Positions 10,358 through 27,449 of a stretch of 64,000 nt of DNA are shown piece after piece. How positions within the stretch are numbered: the first letter of the stretch is position 1; each line of letters begins with the position of its first letter. Made by a program: the position numbers and the translations under genes. Below the pieces are notes generated by a model. It made no database searches and was not told where the DNA came from. It saw nothing but the letters and a program-made list of their open reading frames with translations. This stretch comes from Ilumatobacter fluminis. Lineage in GTDB: Bacteria; Actinomycetota; Acidimicrobiia; Acidimicrobiales; Ilumatobacteraceae. The stretch spans positions 2,946,001-3,010,000 of the forward strand of contig NZ_SOAU01000001.1 of assembly GCF_004364865.1 (NCBI RefSeq). The letters run 5' to 3'.

Positions 10358-12079
10358 TCAGCGGTGGACGAGGGCGACGGCGTCGAGTGGGACGACGGCC
10401 TCGCCGTCGCGCACGACGACCGCGGGGTCGGAGGCGGCGATCAGTCGTCCGCTGGTCGGGAACCGGTGGGTGCCGGTGCCGAGGTTGACCAGCACGTCGA
10501 TGTCGCCGCGCCGGACGGTCAGCGTTCGGCTGTCGGCGTCGACCTCGACGTCGATCCGGTCGAGGCGCGGGTCGGACAGACACGGGAACGCCCGACGCAG
10601 CCCGATCAGTTCGCGGTACCAGTCGGACATCGACCGATGGATGTCGTCGTCGAACTCCGACCAGTCGAGCTTCGACCGCTCGAACGTCGAACGGTCCTGC
10701 GGGTCGGGCACGTCGGCCGGATCCCACCCGAAGTACGAGAACTCGTTCCGACGCCCCTCGCTGACCGCCCGACCGAGTTCGGGATCGTCGTGGTCGGTGA
10801 AGTACTGGAACGGCGTCGTCGTTCCCCACTCCTCGCCTTGGAAGAGCATCGGCGTGAAGGGCGAGGTGAGCAGGAGCGCCGCAGCGATGCGGAGCCGGCC
10901 GTCCGACATGTTGCGGCTCGGTCGATCGCCGACCGCCCGGTTCCCGACCTGGTCGTGGTTCTGGGTGCACACCACGAACTGTGAACCGCTCAGTCCGGTC
11001 GGCGGGCGGCCGTGGTGACGGCCGCGATGCTCCGACCAGATGCCGTCGTACACCCAGGCCTGACGCAACGCCTTGGCGAGGTGTTCGAGCGTGCCGAAAT
11101 CGGCGTAGTAGCCGCTCGTGTCGCCCGTGAGCACCGAACGGAGGGCGTGATGCCATTCATCGGCCCACGAGGCGTCGAGTTCGAACCCGCCGGCGTCGTG
11201 CGATCGGACGAACCGCGGGTCGTTCAGGTCGCTCTCGGCGACGAGGAACAGGGGTCGGCGGACGTGACTCGACAGTGCTGCGACCTCGTCGGCGAGTTGC
11301 TCGAGCAGGTGCACCGCCGAGTCGTCGACGAGCGCGTGCACGGCGTCGAGACGCAGTCCGTCGACGTGATAGTCGCGAAGCCACATGAGCGCGTTGTCGA
11401 CGACGAAGCGACGGACCTCGTCGCTGCCAGGTCCGTCGAGGTTGACGGCGGGCCCCCAGTTGGTGTGGTGGCGCTCGGAGAAGTACGGCCCGAACCGACC
11501 GAGGTAGTTCCCCGACGGGCCGAGGTGGTTGTAGACCACGTCGAGCACCACGCCGATGCCGTGATCGTGGCATGCGTCGACGAACCGTTTCATCGCATCG
11601 GGCCCGCCGTATGCGGCGTGTGGAGCGAACAAGCCGACCCCGTCGTATCCCCAGCCCCGTTCACCGGGGAACGACGCGACCGGCATCACCTCGACGGCGT
11701 CGGCGCCGAGGCCCCGGAGGTACGGCAGCATCGCGATCGCGTCGTCGAAGGTGCCGCCGGGCGTGAACGTGCCGACGTGGAGCTCGTACAGCACGGCGCC
11801 GGCGAGCGGGACACCCCGCCAGTCGTGGTCGGTCCACGCAAACGCCGTGTTGTCGACCCACTCGGACGCTGCGTGCACACCGTCGGGCTGGGAGGGCGAC
11901 CGCGGGTCGGGCAGTGGATCGCTCCCGTCGACCGAGAACCCGTAGCGAGCGCCCGATTCGGGGACGATCTCGTCGGTCGTCCACCAGCCGCCCCCATCGA
12001 CGGCGAGGTCGAACCTCCGCCCGTCGACCTCGAGGCCCACCGCTGCGGCCGACGGTGCCCACACCTCGTACCGCAACAT
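10358..12079 (-). CDS. treZ: Malto-oligosyltrehalose trehalohydrolase TreZ
   Basis: GH13 enzyme (573 aa) that releases trehalose from maltooligosyl-trehalose made by TreY. A CBM48-like N-terminal domain (YEVWAPSAAAVGLEVDG) precedes the barrel. The four GH13 regions are VVLDVVYNHLGPSGNY, VDGLRLDAVHAL, FLVAESDLNDP and CTQNHDQVGNR. ELHVGTFTPGGTFDDAIAML is characteristic of TreZ/GlgX relatives. The ATG at 12079 shares one base with the treY stop (TGATG), so translation is coupled. No treX debranching enzyme is adjacent. Confidence 0.95.
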   Translation of the reverse strand: MLRYEVWAPSAAAVGLEVDGRRFDLAVDGGGWWTTDEIVPESGARYGFSVDGSDPLPDPRSPSQPDGVHAASEWVDNTAFAWTDHDWRGVPLAGAVLYELHVGTFTPGGTFDDAIAMLPYLRGLGADAVEVMPVASFPGERGWGYDGVGLFAPHAAYGGPDAMKRFVDACHDHGIGVVLDVVYNHLGPSGNYLGRFGPYFSERHHTNWGPAVNLDGPGSDEVRRFVVDNALMWLRDYHVDGLRLDAVHALVDDSAVHLLEQLADEVAALSSHVRRPLFLVAESDLNDPRFVRSHDAGGFELDASWADEWHHALRSVLTGDTSGYYADFGTLEHLAKALRQAWVYDGIWSEHRGRHHGRPPTGLSGSQFVVCTQNHDQVGNRAVGDRPSRNMSDGRLRIAAALLLTSPFTPMLFQGEEWGTTTPFQYFTDHDDPELGRAVSEGRRNEFSYFGWDPADVPDPQDRSTFERSKLDWSEFDDDIHRSMSDWYRELIGLRRAFPCLSDPRLDRIDVEVDADSRTLTVRRGDIDVLVNLGTGTHRFPTSGRLIAASDPAVVVRDGEAVVPLDAVALVHR

Positions 12080-14697
12080 CAGCGGGCACCCCGGGTGAGG
12101 ACGGAGACGGGAAAGTCGGCGAAGAGTTCGTCGAGTCGGATGCTGCCGCCGTCGAATCGTCGGCCCGACAGTGCGTCGGTCCAGTCGCCGGGCGGCGTCT
12201 CGACCGTCGTGCCCGACCAGTCGTCGCCGCCCAGCGTCGGGACGACGACCGACAGGTCGGGGCGGGCGAAGGCGACCACCTGGCCCGAACGAGCGCCATC
12301 GACCGCGAGCGGTTCGTAGTCGGACCCGGTGAAGGAGTGCGTCCGTTCGCGGCGGAGGCGGAGTAGGTGGCGGGTCATCCAGAACTTCGGGTCGCCACGG
12401 TCGCTGCGGGCAAGCACGTCGGCGGCCGATGCTGCGGCGGACTCGGCGGCGACGAGACGCCTGAGGTCGACATCGACCGGACGCCGGTTGTCCGGATCGA
12501 CGAGGCTCAGGTCCCACAGCTCGGATCCCTGGTACGTATCGGGCACGCCGGGTGCCGTCAGCAACAGCGCAGTCTGGGCGAGCGAGTTGCGGCGGCCACG
12601 CCCGACGACGTCGTTCTCCCGGAGGAACCGCTCGATCTCGGTGGCGATCCGATCGTCGCCGACGACCGCCCGCGTGAACGCGGCGATCGCCAGGTCGTAC
12701 TCGGGGTCGGGGTCGACCCACGAGGTGTGCACCTTCGCTTCACGAGTCGCCTTGTCCATGAAGGCCACGGCGCGTTCGGCGTCGATCGGCCAGGCGCCGA
12801 CGAGCGTCTGGAAGAGCAGGTACTCGGCGTTCAGATCGTCGAACGACCGATGCGGCGTCGCCAGTTCTGCCAACCGCTCCACCGTGGCCGACCATTCGCT
12901 CGGAACCTCCGACAGCACGTTGAGCCGTGCCCGTACGTCGGCGCTGCGTTTCGTGTCGTGCGTCGACAGGGTGTTCATGGCGTTCGGCCAGGCACTCGCC
13001 GACGCAGCCGTCAGCCGATGGAACTCGTCGACGGATCGCCCGAACCTCGACGGGTCGCCGCCGACCTCGTTCAGCGAGATCAGCCGGTGGTAGCGGTAGA
13101 ACGCCGTGTCCTCGACGCCTTTGGCCATGACCGGGGCGGTCAACTGCTGCACCCTCGCCGCGAACTCGCCACCGTCGGACTCGTCGCCGACGGCGAGACG
13201 CCCGATCAGGTCGACGAGTTCGGCGTCGATGTCGGGGCGCGCCGACCGGGTCGCGCCGACGGCCGCTCCGATGACGTCGCGGTCGGCGGCGCTCGTCGGC
13301 CTGCCGCCGGCGACGTACGTTCGGTACACCGGGAAGTGGGCCACGTACTCCCGCAACGCGTCGCGCAGTTCCCGGCGTGTGTGGTCGCTGTGACGTCGCC
13401 GAGACGCGCAGGCGTCGGCGAGGAGATCGGTGACGCGCTCGACCTCGGTCACCAACTCGTCGCGCATGATCTGGTGCTTGGCCGCGTGCACGATCTCGTG
13501 GTAGTCGGTCGACTCCCCGGTGAAGTCGGCGTAGCAGTCCGACATCGCGGCCTCGTTGCCCGAGTCGACGAACAGGTCGTTGACCCGGATCAGGAAGTCG
13601 TAGCCCGAGGTGCCGGCCGATCGCCACGACGGCAGGTTCTCGTGGCCTTCGAGGATCTTCTCGACCACCACGTAGGTGTCGTCGGTCGCGTCGGCCAGCC
13701 GGTCGAGGTACTGCTCCGGGTCGCGCAACCCGTCGACATGATCGACCCGGAGCCCGTCAACGACCCCGTCGGCGACGAGCCGGAGGATGAGTTCGTGGGT
13801 GGTCTCGAGCACCGCAGGGTCTTCGACCCGGACGCCGATCAAGGAGTCGATGTTGAAGAATCGTCGATAGTCGAGCTCGTCGCTGGCGGTCCGCCAGCGC
13901 GCCAACCGGTAGTTCTGCCGTGTCAGCAGCGCGTCGAGCCGGTCGTTCTCCCCGTTGACCGTCCGGAGCTCCTCGTCGACGGCGGCAGCGATCGACGGGT
14001 CCTCGTCGAACAGCTCGATGAGATCGGCGACGAGGCGCTCGACGAGATCGTGGCGCGCCCGGGCCGCCTCGGCCTCGCTGACCCGTGGCATCGGCAGGGC
14101 GCCGAACGACTCGGCGAGGTCGGCCAGGGCCGACGAACCGGCCCGGTCGGCTGCGCCGGCGAGCACCGACTCGTACGTTCGTGGTGCCAGCGGGAACCGG
14201 TGGTCGTAGTAGCGGACGACGAAGCGGGCGCCGAGGCGCTCGATCGACAGCTCCCCGCTCTCGAGGACCCGGCCATAGTGGTCGCCGAGCACCGGGACGA
14301 GCACCGGATCGGTCACGCCGTCGGGCCGTTCGTGCCAGCCGATGTCGAACACGGGGGCGAAGCGACTCGCTGCACCGTTCGCGAGGACGTCCCACCACCA
14401 GGGGTTCGTCGCGTCCGTCACCATGTGGTTCGGCACGATGTCGAGGATCTGTCCGAGTCCGTGGTCGGCCAAGGCGGCGACGAGGGTGTCGTGTGCATCG
14501 AATCCGCCGAGCTCGGCGTTCACCCGGTGCGGATCGGCGACGTCGTATCCGTGCGTGCTCCCCGGCGCTGCCTGGAGGTACGGCGAGCAGTACAGATGCG
14601 TCACCCCGAGGTCGGCCAGATAGTCCGCGATGGCGGCAGCATCGCCGAAACCGAAACCGGGGTGCAGCTGCACCCGATACGTCGACGCACCGTCCAC
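12079..14697 (-). CDS. treY: Malto-oligosyltrehalose synthase TreY
   Basis: GH13 transglycosylase (about 872 aa) that converts the reducing end of alpha-1,4-glucan into an alpha,alpha-1,1 linkage. Motifs include DLGVTHLYCSPYLQAAPGS, ILDIVPNHMV, VDGLRVDHVDGLRDP, VVVEKILEGHE and NTLSTHDTKRS, all diagnostic of TreY. The GTG at 14697 gives MDGASTYRVQLHPGF, the normal family start. An ATG at 14724 would add nine residues. Neither has a clear ribosome site. It forms an operon with treZ. Confidence 0.94.
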   Translation of the reverse strand: MDGASTYRVQLHPGFGFGDAAAIADYLADLGVTHLYCSPYLQAAPGSTHGYDVADPHRVNAELGGFDAHDTLVAALADHGLGQILDIVPNHMVTDATNPWWWDVLANGAASRFAPVFDIGWHERPDGVTDPVLVPVLGDHYGRVLESGELSIERLGARFVVRYYDHRFPLAPRTYESVLAGAADRAGSSALADLAESFGALPMPRVSEAEAARARHDLVERLVADLIELFDEDPSIAAAVDEELRTVNGENDRLDALLTRQNYRLARWRTASDELDYRRFFNIDSLIGVRVEDPAVLETTHELILRLVADGVVDGLRVDHVDGLRDPEQYLDRLADATDDTYVVVEKILEGHENLPSWRSAGTSGYDFLIRVNDLFVDSGNEAAMSDCYADFTGESTDYHEIVHAAKHQIMRDELVTEVERVTDLLADACASRRRHSDHTRRELRDALREYVAHFPVYRTYVAGGRPTSAADRDVIGAAVGATRSARPDIDAELVDLIGRLAVGDESDGGEFAARVQQLTAPVMAKGVEDTAFYRYHRLISLNEVGGDPSRFGRSVDEFHRLTAASASAWPNAMNTLSTHDTKRSADVRARLNVLSEVPSEWSATVERLAELATPHRSFDDLNAEYLLFQTLVGAWPIDAERAVAFMDKATREAKVHTSWVDPDPEYDLAIAAFTRAVVGDDRIATEIERFLRENDVVGRGRRNSLAQTALLLTAPGVPDTYQGSELWDLSLVDPDNRRPVDVDLRRLVAAESAAASAADVLARSDRGDPKFWMTRHLLRLRRERTHSFTGSDYEPLAVDGARSGQVVAFARPDLSVVVPTLGGDDWSGTTVETPPGDWTDALSGRRFDGGSIRLDELFADFPVSVLTRGAR

Positions 14698-18799: not shown

Positions 18800-21010
18800 T
18801 CAGAGACGACGGACCGCGAGGGCGGTGACGTCGTCGTGGGGATCGAGCCCGGCCATCAGATCGGCCAAACGCTCGGCCCAGCCGTCGATCGACGCCTCGG
18901 CCAGCAGCTGTGATTCGCGCCGGAGCACCCCGAGACCCTCGTCGATGTCGCGACCGGGCTTCTCGACGAGTCCGTCGCTGTACATCAGCAACATCTGACC
19001 GGGCACCAGTTCGAACTCGACGGCCTCGTACGGCCCGTCGAATGCGCCGAGCAAGCGGTTCACCGGCATGGACGTGTGCTGCGCGCCGTGGGCGTCGATG
19101 ACCAGCGGCGGGAGGTGTCCGGCGCCGCACAACCGGACGCGACTCGACTCGTGATCGAGCACGGCGACGACCAGCGTGACGAGTTCACCGGGCAGCATCG
19201 TGCGCAGCAGCCGGTCGAGCTTGGCGGCCGCGACCGTCGGGTCGGGGTCGTCGGCGAGGTACGCCCGCAACGAGTTGCGTGCCTGCGTCATGGTGCTCGC
19301 GGCTCTGAGTCCGTGCCCGGCGACGTCGCCGACGACGAACGCCGTCCGGTCGCCCAGCGTGACGACGTCGTACCAGTCTCCGCCGACGCGACCCTGACCG
19401 TCCGGTGCGTAGTGAGCGTCGAGTGCGTAGCCCGGGACCGACGGCAGCCGAGCCGGGAGCGCGACCTTCATCAGATCGTCGGCGATCGACACCGCTTCGC
19501 GGTCGCGACGCAGCTTCGACGAGATGAGGTGCCTCGTGAAGCGGTAGGCCGCAGCCATCTCGGGTTCGGCCCATGGCTCGCTGCGTCCCCGGACGACCTC
19601 CCGCCAGAGTTCGAAACTCCGCCGCGGGGCGAGCCGCACGCCGGGTCGCTCGGCGGCCACTTCCTTCTCGTACGGGTCGCCCGCCCAGTCGACGAACTCC
19701 ACCTGTTCGGGGCGGAACCACACGGCCAGATCGTCACGGTCGCCCGACATCGACATCGCCAGGATGCCCGCTGCGACATCGGCGTACGGCTCGGCGCCGG
19801 GCTCGATCGATGCGGCATGCTCGCACGCGAACGCATCGTCGTCGGCACTCCAATGATCGAGCACCGACCAGGTCACCGCCGCCGGAGGCACCGTGCCGAA
19901 CCGCACGACGTCGTCACCGATCCGGATCGCCGCGCCCGTGGCGTTCGCCAGCTTGAGCACGTCGGCCTCGTGTTCGGCGAGCAAGGTCGTCAGCGACCGG
20001 TGGTCGTTCGCGAGCAGGATGTCGCCCAGCGCGTTCGCCAGGTTCGTCAGCTCGGTCGTGCGTTGCCGTTCGTGGTTCCGTTCGCAGTCACCCAAGCGCA
20101 CCGATGCGAGCTGGCCGATGTATTCGGCGGTGTTCCGGACGGGCGGAGGAGGGCGGTGCGGCCCCGAGTAGTGGTGGCAGGCGATCAGCCCCCACAGCTC
20201 GTCGTCGATGATCAACGAGATCGACATCGACGCCGTCACGCCCATGTGACTCAGGTACTCGACGTGGATCGGCGAGACGCTCCGGATCGTCGAATCGCTG
20301 AGGTCGAGCGGCGTGCCGTCGGGGGTCAGGTCGTGCGGCTCGATCGGAGCAGGTTCGAAATGGATGTCGGGAATGACCCGGAGCCAGTTGCGTCGGTACA
20401 GATCCCTGGCCTGGGCCGGGATGTCGGTCGACGGATAGCGCAGGCCGAGGAAGGTGTTGAGATCGTCGCGCTTGCGTTCGGCGATCACCTGGCCGTTCCA
20501 CTGCTCGTCGAACCGGTAGACCATCACCCGGTCGAAGCCGGTGATCTCACGCACGGCTGCGGCAGCAGCATCGGCGGTCGCCGCGATCGTCGACGTCTGG
20601 TTCAACTCCATCGTCGCGCTGCGCACGAGCGAGAGCGGCAGGTTGGTCTGGCGAACCGCCTCGAGTTCGAGCACGAACCACCCGGTCGAGGCGTACAACG
20701 CCCCGGAGTACCGATCGCCGTCGAGCACGAACTGGATCTCGTCGACGCGTCCTTCGGCGGCGCGAGCGAGCTCGGCCTCGACCGTCTCGGCGGCGACGTC
20801 GTCGAGGAGCTCGCCGAGGTGGCTCCCGACGATCTCGTCCGGCGAGTTGCCGAACCAGTCGCTGATGTTCGACGACGCGGCCTGGACCACGAGATCGGCG
20901 TCGAAGGCGATCAACGCTCCGTGCGGTTGCACCGACCCGGGGATGTGGATCGGTTCGTCCTCGCAGTTGTGCAGATCGATCAGCTCGCCGCGAACCAGGT
21001 ATCCCGTCAT
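18800..21010 (-). CDS. Bacteriophytochrome fused to a SpoIIE/PP2C-type phosphatase
   Basis: A 736-aa red/far-red photoreceptor with a phosphatase output. PAS: biliverdin-binding Cys16 in LHNCEDEPIHIPGSVQPHG. GAF: PSTDIP (193-198), SHMGV (His255) and ACHHYSGP (His279). PHY (about 310-490): the tongue motif PRRSF (462-466). PP2C/SpoIIE (about 520-736): GGDWYD (543-548), GDVAGHG (561-567), YSDGLVE (Asp678) and DDVTALAV. All chromophore and metal ligands I can check are present. There is no histidine kinase or GGDEF domain. The ATG at 21010 has a GGAAGGAG ribosome site and overlaps the heme oxygenase stop, so the longer open frame upstream is not coding. Its likely substrate is a phosphorylated STAS protein such as the one at 21726. 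Confidence 0.93.
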   Translation of the reverse strand: MTGYLVRGELIDLHNCEDEPIHIPGSVQPHGALIAFDADLVVQAASSNISDWFGNSPDEIVGSHLGELLDDVAAETVEAELARAAEGRVDEIQFVLDGDRYSGALYASTGWFVLELEAVRQTNLPLSLVRSATMELNQTSTIAATADAAAAAVREITGFDRVMVYRFDEQWNGQVIAERKRDDLNTFLGLRYPSTDIPAQARDLYRRNWLRVIPDIHFEPAPIEPHDLTPDGTPLDLSDSTIRSVSPIHVEYLSHMGVTASMSISLIIDDELWGLIACHHYSGPHRPPPPVRNTAEYIGQLASVRLGDCERNHERQRTTELTNLANALGDILLANDHRSLTTLLAEHEADVLKLANATGAAIRIGDDVVRFGTVPPAAVTWSVLDHWSADDDAFACEHAASIEPGAEPYADVAAGILAMSMSGDRDDLAVWFRPEQVEFVDWAGDPYEKEVAAERPGVRLAPRRSFELWREVVRGRSEPWAEPEMAAAYRFTRHLISSKLRRDREAVSIADDLMKVALPARLPSVPGYALDAHYAPDGQGRVGGDWYDVVTLGDRTAFVVGDVAGHGLRAASTMTQARNSLRAYLADDPDPTVAAAKLDRLLRTMLPGELVTLVVAVLDHESSRVRLCGAGHLPPLVIDAHGAQHTSMPVNRLLGAFDGPYEAVEFELVPGQMLLMYSDGLVEKPGRDIDEGLGVLRRESQLLAEASIDGWAERLADLMAGLDPHDDVTALAVRRL

Positions 21011-21636
21011 GTCGCGACTCCTTCCCGAACAACCGGTTCGTCGGCTCGTACCAACTCGACGAGCAAGGCGTCGAACACCGCTCGCGCCGAGTGAACGGCT
21101 CGGTCGAGGTCGGCCTGTCCGCCGTCGAACGCGGCGCGGGCGGCGACGCGGAAGGCCGCCCAGGCGGGACGGGCGTCGGTGGCGGCGGCGTCGAAGTACG
21201 AGCGCGGCACGTCGGGCAGATCGACGGCCAACCGCTCCGCGATCACCGTCGAGCCGAGCCGCGACCCCTGCATCACGTACATCGCGCCCCACCACGAGCC
21301 GCCGTCGTCGTACCCGACCGACTCGGTCGACCGGGCCGAATCGTCGATCTCGAGGTCGATGTCGAGGCCGAGCGACCGCACATCGGCGACCAGCAGCGGC
21401 GTGAGCGGCACGAACGGGAATCGGCCGTCTCCGTACCGCACCAACGCCTGTTCGACACCCGGCAGCACGCGCGCGAGCGCCACCAGTGAAGAGCCGTACC
21501 GGTGCACGTCGAGACCGGCGGTGCCGAGCGACGACCGTTCGTCGACCGCCTGATGGAGATCGTCGACCGCTCGCCGCAGCGCACCCAATGGTTCGGTTGC
21601 ACGGTCGCTGCGCGGGTGGTTCCGACCGTCGACCAC
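21007..21636 (-). CDS. Biliverdin-producing heme oxygenase (BphO-like)
   Basis: A 209-aa all-helical enzyme that opens haem to biliverdin, the chromophore for the downstream phytochrome. The proximal His is His28 in DDLHQAVDERSSL. The distal-helix glycine motif is YVMQGSRLGSTVIAERL. The start is GTG at 21636, preceded 6 nt upstream by TAATCT, a near-consensus -10, so the mRNA is probably leaderless. Its stop overlaps the phytochrome start (ATGA), coupling chromophore and apoprotein synthesis. Confidence 0.9.
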   Translation of the reverse strand: MVDGRNHPRSDRATEPLGALRRAVDDLHQAVDERSSLGTAGLDVHRYGSSLVALARVLPGVEQALVRYGDGRFPFVPLTPLLVADVRSLGLDIDLEIDDSARSTESVGYDDGGSWWGAMYVMQGSRLGSTVIAERLAVDLPDVPRSYFDAAATDARPAWAAFRVAARAAFDGGQADLDRAVHSARAVFDALLVELVRADEPVVREGVAT

Positions 21637-21642
21637 ACGAGC

Positions 21643-21648
21643 AGATTA
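21643..21648 (-). promoter_or_regulatory. -10 box of the heme oxygenase/phytochrome operon
   Basis: TAATCT on the minus strand, 6 nt before the GTG start. It decides the start and implies a leaderless transcript. Confidence 0.55.
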
Positions 21649-21725
21649 GGAAGTGAGGTGCATCTCCTGCAACGACCGGGGCGTGGCAGCGAGCCAGGAG
21701 GACACGTTTCACCCCGACGGGTGAC

Positions 21726-22106
21726 ATGCGCGACGCCCCGGGATGGGTCAGAATGGCGCTGCTCGCCGCCCCTGGCGAGCGCTTGTGCATTGCCGTGGAA
21801 ACGCCCGACCCGATCATCATCGAACGGACCGACGCGACGGCGACGGTGCGCGGCGAGATCGACGCCCACACGGCACCTGCGGTTCGGGAGGCCGGCGAGT
21901 CGATGCTCACTTCGTACGGTTCGGCTCGTTTCGATCTGAGCGGCGTCGAGTTCATCGACTCGAGCGGGCTCGGCGTGCTCGTCGCACTCACGTCCTCTGC
22001 TCGCGACACCGGCGGCGACGTCACGCTCGTCGCGCCGAGCAAGCCGGTGGTCAGGCTCCTCGAGATCAGCGGGCTCGATCGCCACCTCACCGTCAGCCCC
22101 GGCTGA
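21726..22106 (+). CDS. STAS-domain anti-sigma factor antagonist (RsbV/SpoIIAA type)
   Basis: Up to 126 aa. The STAS core is ATATVRGEIDAHTAPAVREA, then FDLSGVEFIDSSGLGVLVAL with the DSSGLG phosphoserine motif, then LVAPSKPVVRLLEISGLD. In partner switching the dephosphorylated form binds the anti-sigma kinase and frees the sigma factor. The start is uncertain: ATG 21726, ATG 21753 and GTG 21795 are all in frame and none has a well-spaced ribosome site (an AGGAGG at 21696 is too far). It is divergent from the phytochrome-phosphatase operon, its probable activator. Confidence 0.88.
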   Translation: MRDAPGWVRMALLAAPGERLCIAVETPDPIIIERTDATATVRGEIDAHTAPAVREAGESMLTSYGSARFDLSGVEFIDSSGLGVLVALTSSARDTGGDVTLVAPSKPVVRLLEISGLDRHLTVSPG

Positions 22107-22147
22107 CCCTCCGCGCCCCGACCCACCGGTTCCGCTAGAACATCGTC

Positions 22148-22540
22148 GTGGCGAACGATGTGTCGCGTGAGCACCTGACGGTGCGCGATCGCCGCGAGAT
22201 CGCCGCCGTCCGTCGTCGTGTCCGCGACGTCTCCCGCTTGGCGTCCTCCGACGCAGCATGGCTCGACGCGATCACCCTGGCGGTCAGCGAGATCGTCACC
22301 AACGCGATCGAGTACGGCGCGGGCGGCCCGGTGGAGATCACGATCGAGGTCGACGGTGGTGTCCAGGTGGCCGTCGCCGCCGACTCGACCGGCATCCCGC
22401 TCCCTCCCGCCGGCCCGGTTCCGACGACGAGCGTACGCGGACGGGGCCTGCACGTGGTACAGGCACTGGCCGACCAGGTGTCGATCGACGTCCGGGGTGG
22501 ACGCGTGACCGTCACGTGTCGATTCGACCTGCCGATCTGA
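22148..22540 (+). CDS. Anti-sigma regulatory factor, HATPase_c serine kinase (RsbW type)
   Basis: A 130-aa GHKL-fold kinase. The N-box is ITLAVSEIVTNAIEYGAGG. A degenerate G1 box lies in AADSTGIPL, and the G2 box is VRGRGLHVVQALADQV. It would phosphorylate the STAS antagonist and hold a sigma factor, which is not encoded nearby. It starts with GTG, with TAGAAC 6 nt upstream as a possible -10. It lies 41 bp after the STAS gene. Confidence 0.87.
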   Translation: MANDVSREHLTVRDRREIAAVRRRVRDVSRLASSDAAWLDAITLAVSEIVTNAIEYGAGGPVEITIEVDGGVQVAVAADSTGIPLPPAGPVPTTSVRGRGLHVVQALADQVSIDVRGGRVTVTCRFDLPI

Positions 22541-22638
22541 GGGTTCGCCGACATCGAGTCGGGGTATCGGCCGTCCGTGTTCACGCACCGGCCCGCCGCC
22601 ACGACAGCAGTTGTCGATCGTTCGAGGGTCGCGGCGCC

Positions 22639-23652
22639 ATGAGCGTGATCGACCCGACGACCGTCGCACGCGAGGCAGGGCTCCGGCACGTCGACCCGTC
22701 TTCGCTGCCCATCGTTCGGCAGCGGCGAGGCTCCGGATTCAGCTACGTCGGCGCCGACGCCCGCCGGGTCACCGGTCGGGCGCGCGATCGCATCGACCTC
22801 CTGGCGATCCCCCCGGCGTGGTCCGATGTGCGGATCGCCGCCGACGAACGGTGCCACATCCAGGCGGTCGGTGTCGATGACGAGGGCAGGACGCAGTACC
22901 GGTACCACGAGGCGTTCCGCGCGGCGGCGGACGCGGCGAAGTTCGCACGACTGGGGCGCATCGGCGAGCGACTGCCACGGCTGCGAGCCGAGATCCGACG
23001 ACATCTCGCCGCGTGCGGGAGCGATCCGGCGAGCGACGTCGCCGGCGTCATCGCACTCATCGACCACACGCTCATTCGCGTCGGATCGCATCGCTACGCC
23101 GACGAACACGAATCGTACGGAGCCACCACGCTGCTCCGGCGGCACGTGAGCGCCGAGGAATCGAACCTGCGGCTCCGCTTCACCGCGAAGGGCGGCATCG
23201 ACCGGGACATCCTGGTCACCGACCGGGCGATCGCCGACCCGGTACTCCGTTGCCACGCCCGCGGGCTCGCCCCGGGCGAACCGATCTTCACCGGACCCGA
23301 GGGCGGACGTCTCACCGGCGACTCGGTGGCCGACGCACTGTCGACGTGGAGCGGCCTCGAGATGACGGCGAAAGAGCTCCGTACGTGGGGCGCGACGGCG
23401 ACGATGGTGACCGAACTCATGGCACCCGACCTCGCTCGCGACTCGACATCGGACGATCCCCTCCTCGCCGCCTACGACGGCGTCGCCGCCCGACTCGGCA
23501 ACACGCGCGACGTCGCACGCTCGTCGTACGTCGCACCCGTCGTCGTCGAGGCATACGAGCGGGGCACCCTCCAGGACGTCTGGAACCGGTCGCGTCGGTC
23601 GACGTTGTTCGACCGCGGCGAACAGTGCAGTCGGAAGTTGCTCGCCGGGTGA
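22639..23652 (+). CDS. Bacterial type IB DNA topoisomerase
   Basis: A 337-aa poxvirus/bacterial-type topoisomerase that relaxes supercoils by a 3'-phosphotyrosine intermediate. Characteristic segments are RRVTGRARDRIDLLAIPPAW, TQYRYHEAFRAAADAAKF, LIRVGSHRYADEHESYGATT, LRTWGATATM, and the catalytic Tyr at about 297 in VARSSYVAPVVVEAY. The family is sporadic in bacteria and non-essential. It ends 5 bp from the convergent acetyltransferase. Confidence 0.92.
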   Translation: MSVIDPTTVAREAGLRHVDPSSLPIVRQRRGSGFSYVGADARRVTGRARDRIDLLAIPPAWSDVRIAADERCHIQAVGVDDEGRTQYRYHEAFRAAADAAKFARLGRIGERLPRLRAEIRRHLAACGSDPASDVAGVIALIDHTLIRVGSHRYADEHESYGATTLLRRHVSAEESNLRLRFTAKGGIDRDILVTDRAIADPVLRCHARGLAPGEPIFTGPEGGRLTGDSVADALSTWSGLEMTAKELRTWGATATMVTELMAPDLARDSTSDDPLLAAYDGVAARLGNTRDVARSSYVAPVVVEAYERGTLQDVWNRSRRSTLFDRGEQCSRKLLAG

Positions 23653-24217: not shown

Positions 24218-24303
24218 GCCCCGAGTGTGCCACCGTGCCGGACGGCTCGTCTCGAGGCTCAGCCGCCGCGTTTGCCGTCACCCGGAAGGGGTACCCGTGT
24301 CCC

Positions 24304-26133
24304 GTGACCACACACGCCACCGAAGACGCTCGCCCGGACACGCCCGAGATCGACGACCACGGCGTGATCGGCGACTGCGAGACGCTCGCGCTCGTGTCGA
24401 ATCTGGGCGACATCGACTGGATGTGCTGGCCGCGTGCCGACGCGCCGTCGCTGTTCGGGTCGCTCCTCGATCCGGACGCCGGACGCTGGTCGATCCAGCC
24501 CGAATCGGCGACCCACCGGACCCAGCAGTTCTACCTGTCGGAGACCAACGTGCTCGTCACCCGGTTCCAGACCGAAGACGGGATCGTCGAGATCGACGAC
24601 GCCATGGCGATGGACGGACCCCAACGCCTGGTGCGGCGAGTGCGATGCGTACGCGGGTCGGTCTCCGTCCGCAGCGAGTTCGTGCCGCGTCCCGACTACG
24701 CCCGTGCAGCGGTCGACTGGGACTCCGACACCGACGGTGTGACGTTGCAGACGGACTCACTCCGTCTGCGCCTCCGGGCGTCCGCTGAGCTGACGCTCGA
24801 CCGCGACGCCAGCCTCGTCACCTGCGCCGAGCGACTCGACGAGGGGGACGAGCTCGCCTTCGATCTGGCCGCTGCCGACACCGATCGCGATTTCGACGAT
24901 GACACCGAAGTCGCCGAGCACGTCGCCGCCACCGTGACGGAGACGATCGACTACTGGAAGCTCTGGACCGCAGGTGGCACGTACCGTGGCCGTTATCGCT
25001 CAGCGGTCGAGCGGTCGGCGCTCGCACTCAAGCTGCTCACCAACCGCAGCACGGGTGGCATGCTCGCCGCCGGGACGACGAGCTTGCCCGAACACATCGG
25101 AGGCGAACGGAACTGGGACTATCGGTTCGTCTGGATCCGCGATGCCGCGTTCACCGTGTACGCGCTGCTCGAGATCGGACACGACGCCGAAGCCGATGCG
25201 TTCATCGGCTGGCTCGTCGACCGGGTCGACGAGTGCGACCAGGCGGACGGGTCGCCGCTCACGCCCGTGTACGACCTCGACGGCAACGCCCGCATCGGCG
25301 AGCGCGAACTCGAATGGCGCGGCTACGAGAACAGCCGTCCCGTCCGGATCGGCAACGCCGCCGCCGACCAGTTCCAGCTCGACATCTACGGCGAACTCAT
25401 CGATTCGTTGTACATCTTCGACCGCCGATCACGCGGCCTTTCGCTCGACACCTGGGACAAGATCCGTCTCATCGTCGACTACGTGATCGAGCGGTGGCGC
25501 GAGCCCGACGACGGCATGTGGGAGATCCGCTCCGAGCCGCAACGACACACTGCGTCGATCCTCATGTGTTGGGTCGCCGTCGAACGAGCGATCCGGATGG
25601 CGGAGTTCCGCGGCCGGCCAGCCGACCTCGTGGCGTGGCGACGAGCCCGAGACGAGATGCACGACACCATCCGCACGGAGGGCTGGAACGACGAACTCGG
25701 CGCGTTCACCCAGACGCTCGGTGGCGACACGCTCGATGCGTCGATCCTGCTCGCCCCGCTCGTCAAGTTCGTCGACGGCCGCGATCCGCGCTGGACCTCG
25801 ACGCTCGACGCCGTGGTCGAGCACCTGGCCCACGGTCCCCTCGTCGACCGCTACGACACCGACCGCTACGACGACGGTCTGACCTGCGGCGAGGGTTCGT
25901 TCACGATCTGTTCGTTCTGGCTCGTCGAGGCACTCGCCCGGGCCGGGCGGGTGGAGGAGGCACGACGGTCGTTCGACCAGTTGCTCGGCTACGCGAACCC
26001 GGTCGGCCTGTTCAGCGAACAGATCGGTCCCTCCGGTCGGCAGCTCGGCAACACCCCGCAAGCACTCACCCACCTGGCTTTGATCAGCGCCGCCGTGGCG
26101 CTCGACGAAGCACTCGACAGCGAGGAAACATGA
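24304..26133 (+). CDS. GH15 glycoside hydrolase (glucoamylase or trehalase)
   Basis: A 609-aa inverting alpha-glucosidase of the actinobacterial GH15 branch, which includes glucoamylases and trehalases. The N-terminal beta-sandwich (DHGVIGDCETLALVSNLGDI) precedes the (alpha/alpha)6 barrel with GERNWDYRFVWIRDAAF and the catalytic-base region LTCGEGSFTICSFWLVEAL. The GTG at 24304 gives the usual N-terminus. Its stop overlaps the G6PD-like gene (ATGA), and treYZ lie 10 kb away, so trehalase activity is a real alternative. Confidence 0.9.
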   Translation: MTTHATEDARPDTPEIDDHGVIGDCETLALVSNLGDIDWMCWPRADAPSLFGSLLDPDAGRWSIQPESATHRTQQFYLSETNVLVTRFQTEDGIVEIDDAMAMDGPQRLVRRVRCVRGSVSVRSEFVPRPDYARAAVDWDSDTDGVTLQTDSLRLRLRASAELTLDRDASLVTCAERLDEGDELAFDLAAADTDRDFDDDTEVAEHVAATVTETIDYWKLWTAGGTYRGRYRSAVERSALALKLLTNRSTGGMLAAGTTSLPEHIGGERNWDYRFVWIRDAAFTVYALLEIGHDAEADAFIGWLVDRVDECDQADGSPLTPVYDLDGNARIGERELEWRGYENSRPVRIGNAAADQFQLDIYGELIDSLYIFDRRSRGLSLDTWDKIRLIVDYVIERWREPDDGMWEIRSEPQRHTASILMCWVAVERAIRMAEFRGRPADLVAWRRARDEMHDTIRTEGWNDELGAFTQTLGGDTLDASILLAPLVKFVDGRDPRWTSTLDAVVEHLAHGPLVDRYDTDRYDDGLTCGEGSFTICSFWLVEALARAGRVEEARRSFDQLLGYANPVGLFSEQIGPSGRQLGNTPQALTHLALISAAVALDEALDSEET

Positions 26134-27449
26134 CTCCACGAACCCCCCGTTCCGAGCGCGGCGACGCGCTCGTCGTGTTCGGCCTGACCGGCGACCTCGG
26201 GCACGACGAACTGCTTCCCGGCCTCGTCCTGCTCCACGCCACGGGGCGCCTCGGCGTCCCGGTGGTGGGCGTCGGGCGCAACGCCCCCGACGACATCGAA
26301 CAACTGCTGCGCGATGCCATCGACCCCGAACTCGCCGGCCGGACCGGTCTGACGATCGAGCAACTCGTCGACGAGATCGACCTGAGCTTCGTCGAAGGCG
26401 ACGCAACCGAAGCGCAGACCTGGAACGACATCCACGACCGGCTCGGCGATGTAGGGCTCCCGGTGGTGTACGCCGCACTGCCGCCTGCGCTGCTCGGCGA
26501 CGTCGCCGAACAGGTCGCGGCGAGTTCACTCCCCGATTCGTGCCGCCTGGTGCTCGAGAAGCCGTTCGGTGAGGACCGGGCGTCAGCGCTCGACCTGCAC
26601 GAACGCATCACGGACCAAATCGACCCGGCTCGGCTCTTCCTCGTCGACCACTTCCTCGCAAAGGCGGCGGTGCGCAACCTGGTCGACGCGCGACGCACTC
26701 CGGTGCTCGACCTGGCGTTGCAGGCAGAACATCTCGAGTCGATCACGATCGAGTTCCCCGAGGTCGGCGGACTCGACGGCCGAGGCTCGTTCTACGAGGG
26801 CGTCGGCGGCGTCGTCCCCGACGTGGTGCAGAACCACCTCCTGCAGACCGTGGCGAGCGCACTGGCGACGCCTCCGGGTGCACCGTCGGACGGCGACGCC
26901 GAGCGGGCCGCTCGAGTCGACCTCCTGCGACGGATCGCACCGATCGATCCGAACCGCAGCGTGCTCGGACAGTACGACGGGTACCGCGATCTCGACGACG
27001 TCGACGACGACTCGGCGGTGCCGACGTTCGTGTCGGCCGAGCTGGAGATCGACCACGATCGTTGGCGCGGCGTGCCGATCCGGTTGCGAACCGGGAAGCG
27101 GGTCGCGTCCGGGGCGTTCGCGATCGACTGGCGCCTCCGCGGCGCCGGCCTCGCCCGGTCCGTCCGAGCACAGATCAAGCCGCAGGCGGCAATCCAGATC
27201 GACCTCGACGAGCTCGACCCCGACACCCACGGCACCGTCGTGGCGACGGCGTGCACACCGGTGCGTTCGGATCACGGCGCACTCGACGCCTACGCCACTG
27301 TGCTCGGTGACGCCCTGACGGGCGAGCGGCACCACATGACCTCGCTCGACGAGGTCGTCGAGGCATGGCGCATCGTCGAGCCCCTCCTCGGCCCAACGAC
27401 CGATCTGCGCGCCTACGCACCCGGCACCCCCCTCGACGACATCACCTGA
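26130..27449 (+). CDS. zwf: Glucose-6-phosphate dehydrogenase family protein, divergent
   Basis: A 439-aa G6PD-fold protein that would oxidise glucose-6-phosphate to the lactone with NAD(P)+. The Rossmann start is VVFGLTGDLGHDELLPGL, and LVLEKPFGEDRASALDLH and LRTGKR are conserved. The catalytic segment reads LVDHFLAKAAVRNL where typical enzymes have RIDHYLGKE, and the K-R-K of the NADP loop is H-D-E, so the substrate or cofactor may differ. Its start overlaps the GH15 stop. It may be a second paralogue; the housekeeping zwf is not in view. Confidence 0.85.
   Translation: MTPRTPRSERGDALVVFGLTGDLGHDELLPGLVLLHATGRLGVPVVGVGRNAPDDIEQLLRDAIDPELAGRTGLTIEQLVDEIDLSFVEGDATEAQTWNDIHDRLGDVGLPVVYAALPPALLGDVAEQVAASSLPDSCRLVLEKPFGEDRASALDLHERITDQIDPARLFLVDHFLAKAAVRNLVDARRTPVLDLALQAEHLESITIEFPEVGGLDGRGSFYEGVGGVVPDVVQNHLLQTVASALATPPGAPSDGDAERAARVDLLRRIAPIDPNRSVLGQYDGYRDLDDVDDDSAVPTFVSAELEIDHDRWRGVPIRLRTGKRVASGAFAIDWRLRGAGLARSVRAQIKPQAAIQIDLDELDPDTHGTVVATACTPVRSDHGALDAYATVLGDALTGERHHMTSLDEVVEAWRIVEPLLGPTTDLRAYAPGTPLDDIT

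Follow-up and report, generated by a model that had tools for sequence, protein, structure and literature searches.

The genome of Ilumatobacter fluminis (4.78 Mb; G000) contains, within a 64,000-nucleotide stretch spanning positions 2946001-3010000 (the window, whose own numbering is used for its features below), a cassette of four genes that encode a heme oxygenase, a bacteriophytochrome fused to a PP2C phosphatase, a STAS-domain protein and a HATPase-fold protein. We consider it probable that this cassette is the light input to a split SigF-type partner switch, i.e., one in which the anti-sigma factor and the kinase of the STAS protein are separate proteins. A pigment gene, a sensor-phosphatase, a candidate substrate and a candidate kinase are thus all grouped in one locus.

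The largest of the four genes (18800-21010, reverse strand) encodes a 736-residue bacteriophytochrome–PP2C fusion with PAS-GAF-PHY-SpoIIE architecture, an assignment that draws on domains, motifs and full-length actinobacterial relatives. All four domains lie above their Pfam cut-offs (SpoIIE, 5e-41; PHY, 2e-40; PAS_2, 4e-17; GAF, 6e-13), with the SpoIIE model PF07228 reaching 141 bits against a cut-off of 25, and the Pfam scan finds no histidine-kinase domain in the protein. The photosensory module harbors the N-terminal biliverdin Cys (Cys16), the DIP motif as part of PSTDIP, the chromophore-pocket motifs and a PRxSF tongue of sequence PRRSF, and this sensory part matches solved bacteriophytochromes with an E value of 1e-106. 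The metal-binding motifs of the PP2C domain (GGDWYD, GDVAGHG, SDGL and DDVT) are intact. The BphP equivalog model of NCBIfam (NF041576) is matched over the sensory part only, at 336 bits relative to a cut-off of 1040, so that the protein is not assigned to that equivalog, and the PP2C domain gives a weak NCBIfam match to SiaA. No second phytochrome was seen in the I. fluminis genome at E 1e-30. The tongue motif and the GGD of the phosphatase are separated by 75 residues in 20 of 20 phytochrome–PP2C proteins measured, and the linker between them is gapless in 19 aligned sequences, compared with 160 runs of gaps in PHY and 118 in PP2C. We dropped this constancy as special evidence for light control because 15 histidine-kinase phytochromes, taken as a control in which the search pattern missed 45 of 60 sequences (mostly kinases), show a near-constant spacing of 62-63; the fixed linker is thus counted as consistent with light control.

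The phytochrome start is overlapped by 4 bp (ATGA) by the gene of its operon partner (21007-21636, reverse strand), which profile search, alignment and fold support as a divergent BphO-type heme oxygenase of predicted enzyme activity. The window protein is matched by neither Pfam PF01126 nor NCBIfam, and its ortholog in a second Ilumatobacter, the sister species (G200; locus L102), scores 21.8 bits, just below the PF01126 cut-off of 23. Since that cut-off is not reached, membership of the family rests on motifs and fold. A profile built from the two proteins alone picks up bphO genes that neighbor phytochromes in several phyla, with Paenibacillus and Microvirga among the hosts (E down to 6e-12), and four genes of the bphO set, as retrieved with a slightly wider profile, are confirmed by Pfam as heme oxygenases. 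A 20-row alignment reveals H28, G124 and G128 as invariant and S125 as nearly so, in accord with the proximal His and the distal GS-x-x-G helix of heme oxygenases. An AlphaFold model built on 20 sequences (pLDDT 86.9) predicts the expected all-helical fold, and its best four Foldseek matches are all heme oxygenases (E 6e-3 to 2e-2, probability 1.00). The two Ilumatobacter heme oxygenases (21007-21636 versus L102 1837-2433) are merely 43-45% identical, versus 82% for the phytochromes, an unusually fast divergence.

Divergent from the heme oxygenase gene are two genes on the forward strand. The first (21726-22106; the start may instead be 21753 or a GTG at 21795, the latter suggested by the sister species) encodes a STAS protein of the anti-sigma-factor-antagonist type, which exceeds the cut-offs of both Pfam STAS_2 (2e-18) and NCBIfam ant_ant_sig (TIGR00377; 4e-21) and finds its best PDB match in an anti-sigma-B factor antagonist. 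Like other partner-switch antagonists, it combines the STAS domain with a Ser in a DS(S/T)G phospho-site motif, here DSSGLG. The second (22148-22540) encodes a HATPase_c_2 protein (Pfam, 8e-16) that keeps the N-box (ExxxN) and G2 (GRGL) motifs and has a degenerate G1 motif, DSTGIP instead of DxGxG. In a phylogenetic tree it groups, with support of 99/97, with a HATPase of genome G272 that is linked to a gene for a sigma factor of the SigBFG family; this closest non-orthologous relative itself adjoins a STAS gene near SigBFG, as a SigBFG-linked STAS-HATPase pair. More broadly, the best non-orthologous relative of the window HATPase lies ≤15 kb from SigBFG in 12 of the 17 family genomes that have both genes. 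An earlier note on this DNA had named heme oxygenase, phytochrome, phosphatase, STAS protein and HATPase as five parts of one locus, and all are real and correctly placed by Pfam, NCBIfam, profile and fold. Pfam and the motif check bear out its sensor with Cys16, PSTDIP and PRRSF joined to an intact SpoIIE phosphatase with no histidine kinase; profile, catalytic motif and fold bear out the heme oxygenase, whose gene overlaps that of the sensor by 4 bp, and Pfam and NCBIfam the divergent STAS and HATPase genes. Its figure of 700 bp for the divergence is to be corrected: the heme oxygenase and STAS start codons are ≈90-160 bp apart, and it is the start of the phytochrome gene that lies 700 bp off.

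The genome has a single strong match to the SigBFG family (232.9 bits, just below the cut-off of 234.35; next sigma factor, 146), at 4.72 Mb and 1.76 Mb from the window, and we infer that it is the target of the cassette. Along with the sigma gene, its locus carries genes for a STAS protein, a membrane PP2C and an RsbW-like protein. The RsbW-like protein lacks the N-box Asn and GxGL. Throughout the sampled Ilumatobacteraceae, the SigBFG-adjacent HATPase proteins lack the N-box and, save for one with a chance GxG match, also G2, whereas the N-box and GxGL are both retained by the second HATPases encoded near these sigma genes. The sigma-adjacent proteins (e.g., L106 6912-7283) retain the HATPase fold and look as if an anti-sigma factor had given up ATP binding. 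Such a motif-less protein fits the anti-sigma role, as in Mycobacterium smegmatis, where RsbW1 is the anti-sigma factor and RsbW2 alone phosphorylates the STAS protein RsfB (PMC7693655). The window HATPase belongs to the second, motif-keeping type and matches this RsbW1/RsbW2 split, and it is therefore probably an RsbW2-like STAS kinase rather than an anti-sigma factor. The earlier note had it both phosphorylating the STAS protein and holding the sigma factor; the kinase half of that claim remains probable given the N-box, G2 and second-type affiliation, whereas holding the sigma factor fits the motif-less sigma-adjacent protein. That note had also remarked that only the sigma factor was missing, and called for a search of the genome for SigB/SigF-like genes, which returned the strong SigBFG match above; in a split system, the absence of a sigma gene from the cassette is expected. 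With these two details altered, its proposal of a light-driven switch onto a general stress–type sigma factor stands, not as proven, but as the best-supported reading and with independent evidence that links the locus to a sigma factor.

Part of that evidence comes from promoters. A GTTTS-N14/15-GGGTA motif recurs around SigBFG loci and is close to the mycobacterial SigF consensus, GGWWT-N16-17-GGGTAY (PMC7693655). The I. fluminis genome contains 32 exact sites versus three for a reversed control; most of those listed are intergenic and upstream of genes, which include genes for a glycosyltransferase-family-20 protein (trehalose-6-phosphate synthase type), a ferritin/Dps-like protein, Ni-SOD and MscS. 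These sites often lie just ≈11 nt from the start codon, a spacing that points to very short or nearly leaderless transcripts. One exact site, GTTTG-N14-GGGTA (24270-24293, forward strand), has the start codon of a GH15 trehalase/glucoamylase-like gene (24304-26133, forward strand; Pfam Glyco_hydro_15, 5e-65; TREH_N, 5e-21) 11 nt downstream and recurs with the same spacing in the sister species and in a third species of the genus (G202), and hence in three species in all. This gene, a predicted SigF target, is overlapped by and probably in the same operon as zwf, encoding glucose-6-phosphate dehydrogenase (26130-27449, forward strand; G6PD_C, 4e-38; G6PD_N, 4e-24). A near-match in 9 of 10 positions (22542-22566, forward strand) lies upstream of the flanking gene for DNA topoisomerase IB (TopIB; 22639-23652, forward strand; Topoisom_I, 8e-22; Top1B_N_bact, 4e-17), and the sister species has an exact match at the same place (L102 880-856). 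In G140, a genome of the same order, SigF-like sites of a looser form (GGTT) point in both directions from the gap that separates the sigma gene from the cluster leading to GH15, STAS and phytochrome–PP2C genes. Trehalose synthesis genes (treZ and treY) are found at 10358-14697, ≈4 kb from the phytochrome gene, and on the same side of the cassette in the sister species.

The sister species retains the order TopIB-HATPase-STAS/heme oxygenase-phytochrome–PP2C, with identities of 66, 55, 68, 43 and 82%, respectively, and this conservation in a second Ilumatobacter argues that the arrangement is not due to chance. The locus is shared with a same-genus genome labelled Ilumatobacter sp. HKST-UBA13. 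In the third species, the TopIB, GH15 and zwf genes lie together with no STAS, HATPase, heme oxygenase or phytochrome gene beside them; a close ortholog of the window HATPase was not found (best match, 36%), nor any phytochrome at E 1e-60, in this assembly of only 83% completeness. As far as three genomes can show, the four genes were therefore gained or lost together. Full-length phytochrome–PP2C proteins occur in Nocardioides, Aeromicrobium, Cellulomonas, Quadrisphaera and others. A heme oxygenase gene is near the fusion gene in G215 (Pfam score just below cut-off), G640 and Cellulomonas, and a STAS gene in G140, G215 and two Nocardioides; in two Quadrisphaera-like loci, the fusion gene has a canonical, divergent HATPase gene beside it. 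In G140, the STAS gene overlaps the fusion gene, with GH15 adjoining and a SigBFG gene ≈4 kb away, and 18 of the 19 genomes with a phytochrome–PP2C have a SigBFG match. A further genome of the order, G107, groups into one apparent operon (L105 7889-12895) a heme oxygenase–like gene with genes for a response-regulator-PAS-PP2C and for a phytochrome that ends in a histidine-kinase-like part, by its gene content apparently a two-component version of light-to-PP2C coupling. With somewhat less than even confidence, we suggest that in the split SigF switch of the Ilumatobacteraceae the gene for the motif-less anti-sigma factor remains linked to that of the sigma factor and STAS-kinase pairs travel with sensor-phosphatases as exchangeable cassettes, of which the present one would be a self-contained, direct red/far-red plug-in.

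Several observations weigh against the SigF-directed light switch. Conservation between I. fluminis and its sister species alone proves little because the flanks of the two loci are syntenic as well; most of the 18 genomes with a SigBFG match belong to groups in which SigBFG is probably widespread in any case; an exact SigF-type promoter was sought for the heme oxygenase and STAS genes and not found, there being none in the cassette; and the degenerate G1 motif renders kinase activity of the window HATPase doubtful. The cassette contains no sigma gene, and the SigF locus, having its own STAS and PP2C genes, could be insulated from it. These last two points, together with the weak SiaA match of the PP2C domain, would also suit a light-controlled partner switch in which the STAS protein binds some other regulator or enzyme, in a SiaABCD-like manner; partner switches without sigma factors do exist. 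We nevertheless hold this to be unlikely, given that the nearest HATPase relative is near SigBFG, that a SigF-type promoter precedes the flanking operon and that the G140 fusion gene is close to a SigBFG gene. Quite improbable is a classical RsbW, the version of the earlier note, in which the window HATPase doubles as kinase and anti-sigma factor and itself binds the sigma factor: membership of HATPase_c_2, the retained N-box and GRGL, and the operon-like pairing with the STAS gene are all compatible with it, but the sigma gene has its own adjoining RsbW-like protein, relatives have HATPases of both types close to one sigma gene and, by the precedent of M. smegmatis, sigma binding falls to the sigma-adjacent type. 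That the fusion protein works in trans, chiefly on STAS proteins encoded elsewhere in the genome, its nearness to the STAS-HATPase pair being incidental, is highly improbable: most phytochrome–PP2C genes elsewhere have no STAS, HATPase or heme oxygenase gene nearby, and the genome holds several PP2C genes, some with other STAS genes beside them, but the divergent arrangement is kept in two species and jointly absent from the third, STAS overlaps the fusion gene in G140 and HATPase genes diverge from it in the two Quadrisphaera-like loci.

For the SigF-directed light switch, we infer the effect of light and its direction, the choice of substrate, the activity of the kinase and the binding to the anti-sigma factor along the following route. 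The heme oxygenase would make biliverdin, loading the phytochrome at Cys16, and red/far-red light would alter both the tongue of PHY and the helical linker of fixed length, thereby setting the activity of the fused PP2C. The phosphatase would dephosphorylate the Ser of DSSGLG in the neighboring STAS protein, which the neighboring HATPase would rephosphorylate. Unphosphorylated STAS protein would bind the motif-less RsbW-like anti-sigma factor encoded at 4.72 Mb and free the SigBFG factor, whose predicted regulon includes the adjacent GH15-zwf operon as well as trehalose, Dps-like and Ni-SOD genes. If correct, this would provide a bacterial phytochrome route from red light to a general stress sigma factor, together with a light-switched phosphatase of compact design. 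Since the likely sigma factor, anti-sigma factor and target promoters are found in the same genome, the full path from red light to sigma factor could be rebuilt from a handful of proteins.

The gap between the heme oxygenase and STAS genes also harbors an exact, operator-like palindrome, TCACCC-N4-GGGTGA (21709-21724). Allowing ≤1 mismatch, it occurs three times in the window versus 0.32 expected, and the sister species has it in the corresponding gap, where the spacer differs. Of the six copies genome-wide, two fall within predicted genes and another two resemble terminators in their long arms or their position; one (G000:C1:1801581-1801596) is situated 60 bp before an unrelated PAS-PP2C gene. 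Because just the cassette and PAS-PP2C copies are operator-like, we retain a shared operator of partner-switch genes as a lead only; a regulator common to these two loci is possible.

Phytochrome-SpoIIE/PPM fusions of the same domain architecture as the window protein are listed as an effector class in a distance tree (PMC9587094), with locus, target and function not described in the papers found; a search of open-licence papers returned no report of a characterized phytochrome–PP2C, its partner or its function. The fusion architecture is thus already known from the literature, and the four-gene cassette and its link to SigF appear new. In RsbP of Bacillus subtilis, a helical linker connects a sensor domain to a PP2C whose substrate is a phosphorylated STAS antagonist (PMC12143880), and the RsbP/RsbV/RsbW/SigB system resembles the window in joining a sensor by such a linker to a phosphatase that acts on a STAS protein; it differs in that RsbP has a single PAS domain and answers to energy stress, the kinase and anti-sigma roles are united in RsbW and a bilin photoreceptor is absent. 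The YtvA/Lmo0799 input to SigB in Bacillus and Listeria (PMC3019169) likewise conveys light to a general stress sigma factor via a partner switch, from a blue-light receptor, unlike the phytochrome of the window; a phytochrome-like protein is reported to be absent in Listeria or Bacillus, and the red-light mechanism in Listeria to be unknown (PMC3019169). The closest experimental model is the SigF switch of M. smegmatis (RsbW1/RsbW2/RsfB/MSMEG_6131; PMC7693655), in which rsfB and rsbW2 form an operon at a distance from sigF and close to a PP2C gene. The two systems have in common a separate anti-sigma factor and kinase, a STAS-kinase operon distant from the sigma gene, a PP2C in its vicinity and a SigF promoter; the M. 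smegmatis PP2C receives its input through a receiver domain next to a histidine kinase, whereas the PP2C of the window is joined to a phytochrome, which has a heme oxygenase of its own.

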